Assembly: GCA_030751555.1 (NCBI GenBank)
Contig: JASMFX010000078.1
Location: 1-12,642, forward strand
Direction of reading: 5' to 3'
Origin: Candidatus Woesearchaeota archaeon
GTDB lineage: Archaea > Nanoarchaeota > Nanoarchaeia > Woesearchaeales > CALCXY01
Length of the DNA: 12,642 nucleotides
Below are positions 1,854-11,232 of the stretch, piece after piece. A program made the position numbers and the translations under genes. The notes under the pieces were generated by a model that worked only from the letters and a program-made list of their open reading frames with translations, was not told where the DNA came from and did not search any database. Positions within the stretch are counted from its first letter, which is position 1. Each line of letters opens with the position of its first letter.

Positions 1854-1936
1854 GAATTCTAGATTGTACTTTTCTCGTAAGAGTTTCGATAATTCTGAAA
1901 GAAACCACAGGTCACTGGACAGAGAGTGGCGTGAGG

Positions 1937-1965: not shown

Positions 1966-2676
1966 ATGAAATTTAAAATTGACCTTAGTAAAAAAGATAA
2001 ATTGAAAGGATTAGAATTACCAGATAATCCTAGTCCTGAATTAGCTTATTTAGTTGGAGTATTAGCAGGAGATGGGAATATTTTTGTTAGAAAGGAAAAA
2101 CATGATTATCGTGTAAAATGTGTTGGTGATCCAAAACATGAAAGATTGTTTTATGATAATGTTTTGAAAAGAGCAATGTATCAAGTATTTAACATTATGA
2201 TTGATAATAAACTGCAGGATTCATCCAAGACTTATGGATTTTATATTTATTCTAAAGCTCTTGTTACTTACTTGAACCAATTTGGAGGATTGCCAATAGG
2301 AAAGAAGTATTCCAAACTCAGAATTCCAAAATGGATAGGGAAAAAAGGTTTTATACCTCAGTTTATAAGAGGTTTAGCTGATACCGATTTCTGCTTGACA
2401 TATAAAAAGGGTAACTATCCTTGTATCGTGGGTAGCTCAAAATCCAGAGAATTCTTCCAAGAAGTATCAGTTGAATTAAAGAAGCTTGGATTTACATTCT
2501 ATGAGGTCTATGACAGTAAGCAGTATGATAGTCGATTTAAGAAAGGATATTCGATAATTAATAGAATTGAAATTAATGGTTGGAAAAATTATTGTCTTTG
2601 GATGCATAAAGTAGGATTCACTAATCCAAGAATAATAAAGAAAATAAATGCCGTAGTTAGGAACTACGGCCAATAG
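1966..2676 (+). CDS. LAGLIDADG homing endonuclease, two-motif (monomeric) type
   Basis: Predicted site-specific DNA endonuclease of 236 aa. Two LAGLIDADG helices are visible. The first is LVGVLAGDG at residues 29-37, with acidic residue D36. The second is FIRGLADTD at 133-141, with D141. They are about 105 residues apart, as in single-chain two-domain enzymes such as I-DmoI. Each motif ends in Asp, so both half-sites look catalytically intact. The protein is Lys-rich, and there is no intein splicing block (no N-terminal Cys/Ser junction, no C-terminal HN). The gene is free-standing, not inside a coding gene or in frame with a host protein. Its TAG stop (2674-2676) overlaps the last bases of the oppositely oriented initiator tRNA-Met gene, so it may have arrived through tRNA-targeted invasion. 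That link is inference; the target site is unknown. Start chosen from the TATA spacing and the only in-frame ATG near the 5' end. Confidence 0.88.
   Translation: MKFKIDLSKKDKLKGLELPDNPSPELAYLVGVLAGDGNIFVRKEKHDYRVKCVGDPKHERLFYDNVLKRAMYQVFNIMIDNKLQDSSKTYGFYIYSKALVTYLNQFGGLPIGKKYSKLRIPKWIGKKGFIPQFIRGLADTDFCLTYKKGNYPCIVGSSKSREFFQEVSVELKKLGFTFYEVYDSKQYDSRFKKGYSIINRIEINGWKNYCLWMHKVGFTNPRIIKKINAVVRNYGQ
2650..2670 (-). terminator. Hairpin in the 3' trailer of the tRNA-Met gene, followed by a T-rich run
   Basis: A perfect 9-bp stem (2650-2658 with 2662-2670) has a 3-base loop. Read on the minus strand it starts 3 bases after the tRNA discriminator base and is followed by a T-rich stretch, as expected of a transcript end. 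It lies entirely within the last codons of the homing endonuclease gene, so the same bases also encode protein on the other strand. Confidence 0.45.
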
Positions 2677-2687
2677 CGGGGGGTGGA

Positions 2688-2718
2688 CTTCCACGGAAAA
2701 ACACAACAGTGTTCAACT
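2688..2718 (-). other. tRNA-Met intron 2, 31 nt, T loop position 59/60
   Basis: After T-stem GGTGG the exon bases TTCA pair with TGGA at the intron's 3' end (one T-G wobble). This leaves 3-nt bulges AAA and AGT on opposite strands around a 4-bp helix. Cutting AA|A and AG|T restores the canonical T loop TTCAAAT. Inside the intron AACAC and GTGTT form a 5-bp stem with loop TGTT. The inner helix next to the BHB core is weak, so this is a relaxed BHB. A cut two bases earlier would leave TTCAAGT, which is possible but fits the bulges less well. Confidence 0.8.
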
Positions 2719-2732
2719 TTTGAACCACCGAC

Positions 2733-2761
2733 TTCCTCACTGTTAAGCGAACTTAACGGTA
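2733..2761 (-). other. tRNA-Met intron 1, 29 nt, variable loop position 45/46
   Basis: Exon bases CCTC (40-43) pair with GAGG near the intron's 3' end, flanked by 3-nt bulges AGT and AAG. Cutting AG|T and AA|G leaves a normal 5-base variable loop, AGGTC. The intron core is a strong stem, GTTAAG-TTCG-CTTAAC, extended by two more pairs past a C-A mismatch. The outer helix of a full BHB is missing, so this is also the relaxed type. Confidence 0.8.
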
Positions 2762-2831
2762 CTGAGGGTTATGAGCCCTCCGGGCACTCCTAGCTGCCCC
2801 ACCCCGCTATAAGTATGTGAATCAATGGATC

Positions 2832-2859: not shown

Positions 2860-3519
2860 TTAGCTCAGATCATAATATCTCCAATGGAGAATATCATGTT
2901 TTCGTAATCTACCCACCCAGTAACCACCTATAACCCCTATATTGCCTTCTTGGGTTGTAATACATGCTGATTGGAAAGAGGTCATACGAGGATTGGCGTG
3001 TTCAAGGCCTTCTGCACAATCATCGTAGGTTACTTCGTCAAAGCGCTTATTAACTATTTTTAAAGGAACAGATGCTCCTCCTTTGATGGTTATATCATCG
3101 AATGAACGTTTAATAAAAATGTCTGTATAGCGGGATGGATTTGGTTTGTACTCTCCTATGCTAAAATCAATTGCTGCATGTGGCTTTGGTCCATAAGGCC
3201 ATGATCCTTGAATGAAAGGTGGTTCTTCATATACCTTTTTGCAGTAGGGTTTTTCTCCTTCCGGTTCAACGCAGACACCGTTACAGAGTACTTTTGTTTT
3301 CCATTCTGTTGTGCAATCAGGATTTAAGAGTTCTCTTTGCAGGTATTTTCCTTGAGTGCATTTCCAGTTAGTTGTCCATTTATGCTGGCAGATTTGGAGA
3401 TTGCCTGTTATATCGTTGTAATCAACAACTTTTACTGCATTTCCTACTACTGTAGGCTGAACATTCACAAGGATAAGAAAAATAGTTATTACGGTTAGGA
3501 TTATGATAACATTCTTCAT
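2860..3519 (-). CDS. Secreted Cys-rich protein of unknown function
   Basis: 219-aa protein with an N-terminal hydrophobic signal segment (about residues 4-20, MKNVIIILTVITIFLILVNV). The exported part opens with a Cys-rich block at about residues 43-93. Its repeated Cys/Trp spacing (WKC, PDC, WKT, LCNGVC, YCK) resembles short Cys-rich modules in surface proteins of small archaea, though I cannot name a family. The remaining ~125 residues are mixed polar and aromatic sequence with Cys 168 and Cys 186 (approximate), and no catalytic motif that I recognise. It is probably extracellular or tethered by an uncleaved signal anchor, with disulfides likely. The start ATG is supported by a TATA box 27 bases upstream. 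After the TAA stop the minus strand has a T-rich run that could end transcription before the tRNA-Met promoter. Confidence 0.75.
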   Translation of the reverse strand: MKNVIIILTVITIFLILVNVQPTVVGNAVKVVDYNDITGNLQICQHKWTTNWKCTQGKYLQRELLNPDCTTEWKTKVLCNGVCVEPEGEKPYCKKVYEEPPFIQGSWPYGPKPHAAIDFSIGEYKPNPSRYTDIFIKRSFDDITIKGGASVPLKIVNKRFDEVTYDDCAEGLEHANPRMTSFQSACITTQEGNIGVIGGYWVGRLRKHDILHWRYYDLS

Positions 3520-3542
3520 AAGTTAGCTTTCGGATATAAGGG

Positions 3543-3550
3543 TATATAAA
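3543..3550 (-). promoter_or_regulatory. TATA box for the secreted Cys-rich protein gene
   Basis: TTTATATA on the minus strand is centred 27 bases upstream of the ATG at 3519. This predicts a leaderless mRNA and fixes the start. Confidence 0.55.
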
Positions 3551-3601
3551 GTTTTTGGAAAAGTTGGCTTTGAAGCACTTGTAGTTTGGATACCAGAAAG
3601 A

Positions 3602-3609
3602 CTTAAATA
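3602..3609 (+). promoter_or_regulatory. TATA box for the three-gene operon
   Basis: CTTAAATA is centred about 26 bases before ATG 3632. A purine block (GGGGAGG) touches the start codon but is too close to act as a normal Shine-Dalgarno site. No other promoter-like box is seen before the next two genes. Confidence 0.5.
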
Positions 3610-3631
3610 GGTGATTTGTTGATGGGGAGGT

Positions 3632-4180
3632 ATGGCAATTCTAAGACGAGGTATCTCTGGTGAAATAGAGAAAATGAAACGTCAGTTGCATTCTCCTTCA
3701 TTTAAGGTACCTGATAATTGGTTTTGGTGGGATAAAAAGATAGCGCATTTTAATGAAATTGTGTATGCAGATGTTGCTGTTGTGAAGCGTATTCATATTT
3801 TTTATCTGCATGCAAAGGAAAAAAAGAAAACGGAACTGACTGAAAAGATTTTGCAGTTAGCAAGAGAATTAAGAAAAGATATTGACATTATTTTACAACA
3901 GAGTGCTCCTGATGCTCGTACCCAAAAAAACGAGGCAATGGTTGTGAATGAGTTGATTAGATCACTTGATAGGTTGCTGGGTAAAATAGTATATATACCT
4001 GACTATGAAATAGAGAAAAATTGGGAGGCGTTTCAACCAAAGGCTATCCAGGTTATTAATGGCAAGTATCCTTTCTATGATAGTAGTTCGATATCATTTG
4101 GTAATCCTAGGATTCCTGATCTGCCGAAGGTAGTTAGAGTTGATGCATTAATTGTTAGTTATAATGACGGTGGAAAATAG
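3632..4180 (+). CDS. Unknown protein, first gene of a three-gene operon
   Basis: 182-aa soluble protein that I do not recognise. The middle (about residues 45-120) looks alpha-helical, with many Lys, Glu and Leu residues, and there is a Trp cluster NWFWWDKK near residue 30. No signal peptide or membrane segment is seen. The C-terminus is RVDALIVSYNDGGK. That resembles an internal stretch of the next protein (KIDALLVCNPGG), which may point to a shared strand-turn element or to an old duplication. The stop TAG (4178-4180) is followed at once by the ATG of the next gene, so the two are almost certainly co-transcribed and translationally coupled. Start chosen from the TATA spacing; an ATG ten bases upstream is out of frame and stops quickly. 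Confidence 0.7.
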   Translation: MAILRRGISGEIEKMKRQLHSPSFKVPDNWFWWDKKIAHFNEIVYADVAVVKRIHIFYLHAKEKKKTELTEKILQLARELRKDIDIILQQSAPDARTQKNEAMVVNELIRSLDRLLGKIVYIPDYEIEKNWEAFQPKAIQVINGKYPFYDSSSISFGNPRIPDLPKVVRVDALIVSYNDGGK

Positions 4181-9954: not shown

Positions 9955-11232
9955 ATGCTTGATATCAAATTTATAAGAGAGAATCCTGATGTTGTAAAGA
10001 AGAATCTCAAGAAGAAGTTTCAGGATGAAAAGATTAAGACAGTTGATGCGCTGCTCAAATTGGACAAAGAGTATTCTAAGATTTTAAACCAATCCCAGGT
10101 TATTAGGACTAAACGAAATAAGATCAGTGAGGAAATCAATGCGTTGAAGAAGGATGGAAAGGATATAAAAACAAAGGTTAAGCAGGCTAAGGAGATTCCT
10201 AAAAAACTTGAAAAGGTTGAGGCGAAGAGGCTTGAGGTCTTTGAAAAGTTACGGCAGGGATTGTTAACGATTCCCAATATTATTCATGATTCTGTTCCCA
10301 TTGGCAAAGATGATACTGAGAATAAGGAGATTGAAAAGATTGGCAAGCCTCGTAAGTTTGATTTCAAGGTACAAAGTCATGTTGATGTTTTGGAAAAATT
10401 AGGGATAGTTGATTTTGACGCTGCTAGGAGGGTCTCTGGGAATGGATTCTTTTACTTGAAGGGTAATCTTGCTCTGTTGAACCAGGCGCTTCTTAGGTTT
10501 GGGATTGATTTTATGCTGAAAAAAGGATTTGTCTTGGTAGAGCCTCCGCTTATGATCAATAAGGCTACTACAGAGGGTGTTGTGGATTTTGGTTTTTTTA
10601 AGGATATGACGTATAAGATTGAGGAAGAGGATTTGTATTTAATTGGCACTTCTGAGCATCCCTTAATCGGAATGGTGAGTGGAAAGGTTTTGGAAGAGAG
10701 TGATCTGCCGATTAAGATGGTTGGTGTATCTCAGTGTTTCAGAAAAGAGATTGGGAGCCATGGGATTGATGAGAAAGGATTGTTTAGGACACATCAGTTC
10801 AACAAGGTTGAGCAGATTGTGATTTGTAAGCCAGAGGAAAGCTATGATTATTATGATGAAATGTTAGGTATTTCCAAAGAGTTGTTTCATGCGTTGGGAT
10901 TGCCCACAAGAGTATTAGAGTGTTGCTCTGGTGATTTGGCTGATTTGAAAGCAAAGAGTGCTGATCTTGAGGTATGGAGCCCTCGCCAAGGTGCCTATAC
11001 AGAGGCTTGTTCCTGTAGTAATTTGACTGATAATCAGAGCAGGAGATTAGGGATTCGTGTACGAAAGGGTGGAGAAAAGTATTTTCCTCACATCCTGAAT
11101 AATACAGCTATTGCTACGTCCAGGGCCATGGTTGCTATTGTAGAAAATTATCAGAACAAGGATGGAAGTATTGAGATTCCAAAAGTTTTGCAGCCCTATA
11201 TGGGTGGAATGAAAATAATTAAAAAGACCTGA
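9955..11232 (+). CDS. serS: Seryl-tRNA synthetase (common, bacterial-like type)
   Basis: Charges tRNA-Ser with serine in the cytoplasm. The 425-aa length is normal for the widespread SerRS form, not the rarer methanogen form. The N-terminal ~110 residues (MLDIKFIRENPDVVKKNL, then Lys/Glu-rich helices) are the long coiled-coil arm that grips the variable arm of tRNA-Ser. The class II catalytic core follows, with TSEH at residues 232-235, motif 2 at FRKEIGSHGID (Phe262, Arg263) running to RTHQF, the serine/ATP-site stretch EACSCSNLTDNQSRR, and motif 3 at ATSRAMVAIVENYQ (Arg390). All expected motifs are present. The start is fixed by the TATA box and the family-typical N-terminus. A small membrane zinc-ribbon gene follows after 33 bases with no promoter, so the two are probably co-transcribed. 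Confidence 0.97.
   Translation: MLDIKFIRENPDVVKKNLKKKFQDEKIKTVDALLKLDKEYSKILNQSQVIRTKRNKISEEINALKKDGKDIKTKVKQAKEIPKKLEKVEAKRLEVFEKLRQGLLTIPNIIHDSVPIGKDDTENKEIEKIGKPRKFDFKVQSHVDVLEKLGIVDFDAARRVSGNGFFYLKGNLALLNQALLRFGIDFMLKKGFVLVEPPLMINKATTEGVVDFGFFKDMTYKIEEEDLYLIGTSEHPLIGMVSGKVLEESDLPIKMVGVSQCFRKEIGSHGIDEKGLFRTHQFNKVEQIVICKPEESYDYYDEMLGISKELFHALGLPTRVLECCSGDLADLKAKSADLEVWSPRQGAYTEACSCSNLTDNQSRRLGIRVRKGGEKYFPHILNNTAIATSRAMVAIVENYQNKDGSIEIPKVLQPYMGGMKIIKKT

Follow-up and report, generated by a model that had tools for sequence, protein, structure and literature searches.

The 12,642-nt stretch of DNA analyzed here, referred to as the window, carries on its minus strand an initiator tRNA-Met gene interrupted by two short introns and, running toward it on the plus strand, a LAGLIDADG homing-endonuclease gene (HEG) that ends in the 3' end of the tRNA gene (Table 1). 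A sequence-only reading had proposed the two introns and their sites, which our exact coordinates bear out, but had given no strand and had overlooked the convergent LAGLIDADG gene, which we regard as the key to the probable origin of such introns.

Table 1. Coordinates of the features at the initiator tRNA locus, numbered from the first letter of the window
Feature	Position	Strand	Description
Initiator tRNA-Met(CAU) gene	2674..2808	-	135 nt including two introns; mature form 75 nt including discriminator A
Exon 1	2762..2808	-	Nucleotides 1-45: acceptor 5' strand, D arm, anticodon arm, two variable-loop nucleotides
Intron 1	2733..2761	-	29 nt, position 45/46; relaxed BHB, 4-bp core CCTC/GAGG
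Exon 2	2719..2732	-	14 nt: GTC, T stem 5' strand, TTCAAA of T loop
Intron 2	2688..2718	-	31 nt, position 59/60; relaxed BHB, 4-bp core TTCA/TGGA, one G.U
Exon 3	2674..2687	-	T60, T stem 3' strand, acceptor 3' strand, discriminator
TATA box TTTATAAA	2833..2840	-	Starts 32 nt upstream of the initiator tRNA
9-bp hairpin with T-rich tail	2650..2670	-	Directly past the tRNA 3' end, within the HEG coding end
LAGLIDADG HEG, 236 aa	1966..2676	+	Convergent to the tRNA
HEG stop codon TAG	2674-2676	+	Complement of the tRNA 3' CTA
First LAGLIDADG motif, AYLVGVLAGDG	2044..2076	+	D36 invariant in 34 aligned sequences including the window
Second LAGLIDADG motif, FIRGLADTD	2362..2388	+	D139 and D141 invariant in 34 aligned sequences including the window
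TATA-like TATTTAAA	1937..1944	+	Upstream of the HEG; read from sequence
CACTGGACA motif	1913..1921	+	Upstream of the HEG

ARAGORN called no tRNA in the window, in the unspliced gene, or in versions of the gene with either single intron taken out. Removal of both introns in silico resulted in a call of tRNA-Met(CAT) of 75 nt, and the spliced form displayed the features of an archaeal initiator, namely, the CAU anticodon, three G-C anticodon-stem pairs, an acceptor end of the A1-U72 type, and a full cloverleaf, with up to 96% identity over 75 of 75 nt to the intronless gene of another genome (G183). An intron-tolerant tRNA search, which the sequence-only reading had asked for, was performed with an intron-aware profile trained on 38 distinct intronless initiator tRNAs; it gave the window locus 112.6 bits, placed both introns at identical nucleotides, and reached at most 9.6 among 40 reversed loci. 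As read from the letters, exon CCTC pairs with intron GAGG at intron 1 (bulges AG/T and AA/G), and exon TTCA pairs with intron TGGA, with one G.U, at intron 2 (bulges AA/A and AG/T). Both introns thus have the 4-bp core and the 3-nt bulges at both sites that mark an archaeal BHB intron, consistent with the earlier description of the junctions, and the label "relaxed" is assigned from the core helix and bulges. The cut sites are unique if AGGTC and the seven-base T loop are to be restored. The Rfam group I intron search gave no match in the window, so the introns are not assigned to that class, and Rfam matches to snoZ267 and speF fell under the gathering score. This sequence analysis confirms the doubly interrupted initiator tRNA. 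The hairpin past its 3' end is a possible terminator; strong hairpins were also observed at this place in L115, L121, L122, L146, L150, and L164 and were absent from the other 12 of the 19 loci folded.

The convergent ORF matched Pfam LAGLIDADG_3 (E 3.6e-6), and the best solved chains for the HEG profile were an I-DmoI/I-CreI chimera (E 2.9e-7) and I-DmoI (2.3e-6). Its AlphaFold2 model (pLDDT 94.3) resembled I-Tsp061I most closely among solved folds (E 1.8e-9), followed by an archaeal intein and I-DmoI, with the bI3 maturase (2ab5) and a bifunctional homing endonuclease/group I splicing factor (1p8k) among the other structural matches. The two motifs with acidic residues and the two alpha-beta repeats of a LAGLIDADG homing endonuclease are both present. 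By sequence and model, ORF 1966-2676 therefore encodes a monomeric LAGLIDADG homing endonuclease, and site-specific cleavage is predicted. Neither phages nor viral contigs yielded a match that would indicate a viral origin of the gene. Its stop codon lies within the tRNA in 13 of 19 initiator-tRNA loci with a window-type HEG and directly on the tRNA 3' CTA in 5 of these 19 (the window, L115, L120, L121, and L147). A CACTGG[ATC]CA motif was seen near the start of 9 of 29 tested tRNA-flanking HEGs and may be an operator or a piece of an element end.

A DPANN source of the window, suggested by the sequence-only reading, is well supported by sequence comparison. The nearest archaeal records of the window SerRS are named Nanoarchaeota and Pacearchaeota (56% and 53% identity), and the mature tRNA found matches in 312 of 371 genomes drawn from the phylum to which G001, the source genome of the Nanoarchaeota SerRS record, belongs, the best being 96% over all 75 nt. 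Only 2 of 63 HEG homologs had a taxon name, both Woesearchaeota. The SerRS gene (9955-11232) also shows as much as 54% identity to a Firmicutes-type record and is therefore called bacterial-type, its archaeal and Firmicutes relatives being about equally near. An L-lactate permease family gene (PF02652, 300-1853) adjoins the HEG in this presumed DPANN archaeon.

Introns in initiator tRNAs of the phylum

The sequence-only reading had considered two introns in an initiator tRNA notable. The introns are real, but they are not exceptional here: relatives in the phylum carry zero to four introns in this gene, at recurrent sites, and the same pair occurs in G239. A pattern for the 5' third of the initiator gene matched 224 of 371 genomes, and a backward control pattern matched none; the printed table gives one copy per matched genome and two in G199. 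A looser BLAST search with the mature tRNA gave two or three matches in some genomes. In a first set of 30 loci, 29 were readable and 7 had introns, and in a second set 36 of 40 did, these having been picked for the lack of a full-length BLAST match and thus being biased toward introns. The recurrent sites were 5/6, 10/11, 15/16, 28-31, 36-38 (canonical), 43/44, 45/46, 47/48, 53/54, and 59/60. Four introns in a single gene were observed in L148, L151, L271, L278, and L290. Among the loci read, the window pair of 45/46 and 59/60 was found elsewhere only in G239 (L122, the same place as L136); the two-intron BHB scan misses this locus owing to a mismatch in one core, and the profile DP was used instead.

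When 47 distinct genes interrupted at non-canonical sites were spliced in silico, standard pairs including G-U made up 984 of 987 stem cells; dealing the 3' letters anew gave 843 on average and at most 861. Double changes were seen in 13 of 21 stem pairs. The profile was trained on intronless genes, and its exon placement therefore leans to the intronless shape; covariation of T-stem strands that flank an intron does not follow from that training. Of 71 non-canonical introns, 47 had a 4-bp BHB core, versus 1.8% after the introns were shuffled; at the canonical site the core was present in 12 of 38, versus 1.6%, this low count being perhaps due to the DP setting the cut one nucleotide off. Long inserts were observed as well: L225 (minus strand, about 761-1528) is an initiator tRNA with a 693-nt canonical-site intron encoding a LAGLIDADG_3 protein, and L279 and L280 have introns of 408 and 406 nt with mutually similar ORFs that match no Pfam LAGLIDADG model. 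No Rfam group I intron was matched in L225, L279, or L280.

Archaeal BHB introns are cut by a splicing endonuclease. The sequence-only reading had raised the question of a heterotetrameric or other broad-specificity form of this enzyme; a search of 16 relatives revealed one PF01974 locus in 15 and two in G238 and no heterotetrameric enzyme, although a diverged second subunit could be missed in such a search. In all eight of eight relatives searched with PF02778, the domain lay in the same gene as PF01974, and the other matches, in G116, G239, and G298, were below the cut-off for a second subunit. From these domain searches, the splicing enzyme of the relatives looks like the alpha type. In the available text of two reviews, by contrast, non-canonical introns are tied to heteromeric or epsilon2 splicing endonucleases (PMC4090602, PMC12397907).

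HEGs beside interrupted tRNA genes

Loci chosen by their tRNA rather than by an HEG, de-duplicated to 116 and with three very long inserts set aside, revealed an association between HEGs and non-canonical introns. Of the 39 initiator tRNAs with a non-canonical intron, 14 had an HEG no more than 350 nt away, compared with 0 of 19 that had canonical introns only and 1 of 55 that had none (Fisher, non-canonical versus rest, 6e-7), and when 350 nt of flank was demanded on both sides, the counts were 13/36, 0/17, and 1/53 (1.6e-6); these p values take no account of shared ancestry. The counts are lower bounds, as illustrated by L281, whose LAGLIDADG_3 neighbor is missed by the HEG profile. The adjacency of HEGs to interrupted initiator tRNAs suggests spread by DNA cutting and copying. 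The remaining 25 of 39 initiator tRNAs with non-canonical introns had no profile-matching HEG nearby, which calls for frequent HEG loss or for another route of arrival for some introns. HEG-like ORFs were also noted upstream of two intronless initiator tRNAs, at 249 nt in L099 (1824-2525) and at about 980 nt in L104 (2554-3075).

The HEG profile matched 219 of 371 genomes, and a census of the family covered 90 of the listed HEG places (30 initial ones, the 40 that followed in the list, and 20 from its end). With the one-intron scan, a tRNA was detected within 350 nt of 64 of 90 HEGs versus 7 of 75 control ORFs, and within 60 nt of 49 of 90 versus 3 of 75, the control ORFs being kept 600 nt off initiator tRNAs. 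The two-intron scan added 7 HEG loci and 0 of the 68 remaining controls. Once the initiator-tRNA profile, run on the HEG loci but not on the controls, was added, 78 of 90 HEGs were near a tRNA, or 61 of 73 after subtraction of the 17 initiator loci. No tRNA was called for 12 of 90, among which the flanks of L165, L189, and L221 look tRNA-like by eye. In the one-intron scan, 29 of 64 HEG-flanking tRNAs were apparently intronless, and this slightly lowers our confidence in the mechanism proposed below. Because 4 of the 7 control tRNAs were also read as interrupted, we make no claim of intron enrichment for non-initiator tRNAs.

A quick tree of 100 HEGs, 70 of which were labelled (the anticodon of the other 30 rows was unclear or started with A), indicated tRNA specificity. 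The identity of the flanking tRNA required 25 changes on this tree versus a shuffled mean of 41.2 and a minimum of 36 (200 shuffles), and the distinction between initiator and other tRNAs required 4 versus a mean of 21.6 and a minimum of 16. Initiator HEGs formed three clades, with SH-aLRT of 100, in addition to the long-branched L281. Clade A (19 rows, including the window) had an intron at or past position 40 in 18 of 18 labelled loci, with further introns at 28-31 in 5/18 and at 36-38 in 5/18; clade B had an intron at or before 16 in 3/3; and clade C had one at 28-31 in 5/5, with another past 40 in 1/5. The window HEG groups with L136, which has the same two sites, and with L143, where some 850 nt separate the HEG from the initiator tRNA, itself interrupted at 53/54.

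Several relatives retain a second piece of the tRNA on the far side of the HEG. In L116, GTTCAAATCCACTCCCCACTA beyond the HEG is a second tRNA 3' end that starts at the intron site 53/54, and in L122, AAATCCTCTCCCCGCTA is a second 3' end whose start falls at 59/60 within three ambiguous A (each with p 0.005, the smallest value reachable with 200 shuffles). One acceptor base is altered in the L116 copy, which fits a relic. L130 is a weaker, mirror case: its intron is at 10/11, the HEG lies 5' of the tRNA, and the displaced piece, GCGGGGTAGAG, precedes the HEG (p 0.01). Weak displaced ends were also detected in L139 (9 nt, p 0.02) and L129 (p 0.035). The window has no displaced tRNA end (best p 0.60), and such ends were absent in 23 of the 28 loci tested, the window included. 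In a systematic remnant search of 64 HEG-flanking tRNAs, 2 scored at least 12 compared with 0.7% of control pairings, which adds little beyond L116 (L135 in that search). The block from tRNA to remnant is almost wholly HEG ORF in L116 and L122, and its boundary varies with the intron site. In L130, the HEG frame (about 3450-4139, reverse strand coordinates) was seen to start inside the displaced tRNA 5' piece, and the HEG and the restored tRNA may form one transcript from the old tRNA promoter.

A further comparison was of a close pair of loci. L141 and L131 are 90.1% identical over 1393 nt of one flank, up to tRNA nucleotide 15, and 88.7% identical over 1031 nt of the other flank, which begins within the opening codons of the ORF downstream; between the flanks, introns at 37/38 and 43/44 with a LAGLIDADG HEG in L141 stand against a 15/16 intron with a 298-aa ORF that has no detected relatives in L131. 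Judged by these alignments, the difference is what block replacement would leave. The 298-aa ORF of L131 (4088-4984), which occupies the place of the HEG beside the initiator tRNA, looks nuclease-like by eye despite the lack of a significant Pfam match and is possibly an endonuclease of another type.

Origin of the introns

We consider it likely that the window locus is an occupied homing site, in which the HEG has been copied into intronless tRNA genes together with an intron and a tRNA end, the intron masking the site. This reading draws on the architecture of the locus, the protein family, the adjacency, the match between clades and sites, and the remnants in relatives, from which we infer the cleavage, the copying by repair, the protection, and the splicing. 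The initiator tRNA would be transcribed from its own TATA box, the splicing endonuclease would remove both BHB introns, and a ligase would join the exons into the 75-nt tRNA, a course suggested by the sequence. The LAGLIDADG endonuclease would cut intronless initiator tRNA genes in their 3' half (the T-arm region), and repair of the break from the HEG-bearing allele would copy the intron, the remaining tRNA end, and the HEG as one block; unequal ends would leave the old tRNA end stranded beyond the HEG. By interrupting the recognition site, the intron would protect the occupied gene, and splicing would keep the interrupted tRNA functional. Once the HEG was lost, the introns would persist as scars, and further introns, up to four per gene, could come with HEGs that recognize other sites. 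Several observations count against this reading: the initiator tRNAs with non-canonical introns but no HEG nearby (25 of 39), the lack of a displaced tRNA end in the window and of a strong one in any tested locus but L116 and L122, the apparently intronless HEG-flanking tRNAs (29 of 64) and the HEG beside the intronless gene of L099, the clade A introns at other sites, the distance between HEG and tRNA in L143, and the single PF01974 locus in 15 of 16 relatives.

The homing scenario has to be weighed against several others. A freestanding selfish HEG might use conserved tRNA genes as safe sites, the introns being gained independently through host immunity or drift; the 25 of 39 initiator tRNAs with non-canonical introns that lack a detected HEG and the 29 of 64 HEG-flanking tRNAs that appear intronless fit such a history. 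We nevertheless regard it as unlikely, since the HEG clade predicts the intron region, the displaced tRNA end begins at the intron site in L116 and L122, HEG adjacency stands at 14/39 versus 1/55, and the 693-nt initiator-tRNA intron itself encodes a LAGLIDADG_3 protein. The protein might instead have given up homing for a role as a host factor, either a maturase or a regulator of initiator tRNA maturation. The LAGLIDADG maturases among the structural matches (2ab5 and 1p8k) are in keeping with this, but all 34 aligned sequences retain the catalytic acidic residues, the 25 of 39 initiator tRNAs with non-canonical introns manage without such a gene nearby, and the cutting of archaeal BHB introns is the task of the splicing endonuclease, which together make a host role highly improbable.

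Nearly as improbable, though a shade less so, is a site-specific integrase element that inserted at the tRNA and rebuilt its end, with the LAGLIDADG gene as a passenger. The block in L116 and L122 is nearly all HEG ORF, its boundary shifts with the intron site, and a Pfam scan of ten window ORFs revealed no integrase domain, even though displaced tRNA fragments resemble attachment-site repeats and the same proposal has been made for the tRNA-Thr of Caldiarchaeum, according to the available text of PMC3293823. That the window gene is a decayed initiator tRNA pseudogene, with an intact copy elsewhere in the genome, is hardly credible, considering that its mature sequence shares up to 96% identity with an intact gene, that its TATA box is retained, and that stems pair and covary across the introns in relatives. 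Moreover, matched relatives other than G199 hold one copy each of the 5'-half pattern, and a single match was obtained in G239, whose initiator tRNA carries the same pair of introns.

Under the homing reading, the introns of the window are probably one case of a phylum-wide, HEG-driven disruption of tRNA genes, as the relatives' sequences suggest. With somewhat less assurance, though still on the favorable side, we propose that the non-canonical tRNA introns of the DPANN phylum are homing scars, that the lineages of a large LAGLIDADG family are each tied to one tRNA gene and to one stretch of it and spread as a block with an intron and a new tRNA end, that this would be a general mechanism of archaeal tRNA intron gain, and that the Caldiarchaeum tRNA-Thr insertion would be an unrecognized case.

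Known systems and significance

HEGs of the I-DmoI and I-Tsp061I type are located inside an rRNA BHB intron. The window protein shares their fold with two LAGLIDADG repeats, their archaeal origin, and their association with introns; unlike theirs, its gene is not contained in an intron but runs on the strand opposite to the tRNA and its two very short introns and ends in the tRNA 3' end. It therefore differs from a mobile intron, in which the HEG sits inside the intron, an arrangement that was found in the relative L225. In the collaborative homing of phages, a freestanding HEG lies beside a group I intron that interrupts its target. The HEG of the window is likewise adjacent to but outside the intron, with a putative target indicated by the remnants and clades of relatives. 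In contrast to the phage system, the intron here is a protein-spliced BHB tRNA intron, and the proposed block would also supply a new tRNA end.

Disruption of an archaeal initiator tRNA has precedents. The initiator tRNA of Nanoarchaeum equitans is split. That of Thermofilum pendens is permuted, according to the accessible portion of PMC4090602; these genes are trans-spliced or permuted rather than interrupted by cis introns beside an HEG. The multi-intron tRNAs of Thermoproteales and others resemble those described here in having several non-canonical relaxed-BHB introns per gene (PMC4033280 and PMC4090602, in the parts available). For Thermoproteales, the available part of PMC4033280 states a maximum of three introns per tRNA gene, whereas the DPANN initiator tRNA reaches up to four and has adjacent HEGs. 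Archaeal rRNA is known to harbor group I introns with LAGLIDADG genes, as the accessible text of PMC6125680 describes.

The closest parallel is the tRNA-Thr(GGU) of Caldiarchaeum (Sugahara 2012), for which the available text of PMC3293823 reports an extra non-canonical intron at 24/25, an adjacent 813-bp ORF, and, on the other side of this ORF, a displaced piece of the tRNA 5' end. The locus was read as a pNOB8-type integrase element, and the ORF was classed only as DNA-binding or recombination (PMC3293823, same portion). It shares with our loci the extra intron, the adjoining ORF, and the displaced tRNA fragment and differs in being a single locus and in the integrase reading given in that text. 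By analogy, the 813-bp ORF may be of the same kind as the HEGs described here. A literature search covering titles and the beginnings of abstracts, with most subscription papers and bioRxiv outside its range, returned no report of archaeal tRNA BHB introns with adjacent HEGs.

A review, in its available part, describes how archaeal tRNA introns transpose as still unknown (PMC4090602). The window locus and its relatives offer a concrete and testable route, in which a tRNA-dedicated endonuclease would cut, repair would proceed from the occupied allele, and the intron would mask the site. If true, this route would explain the recurrence of intron sites and the piling up of several introns in one gene. 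It would also explain why the essential initiator tRNA is hit, as splicing would render the insertion tolerable, and essentiality would make it hard to lose.
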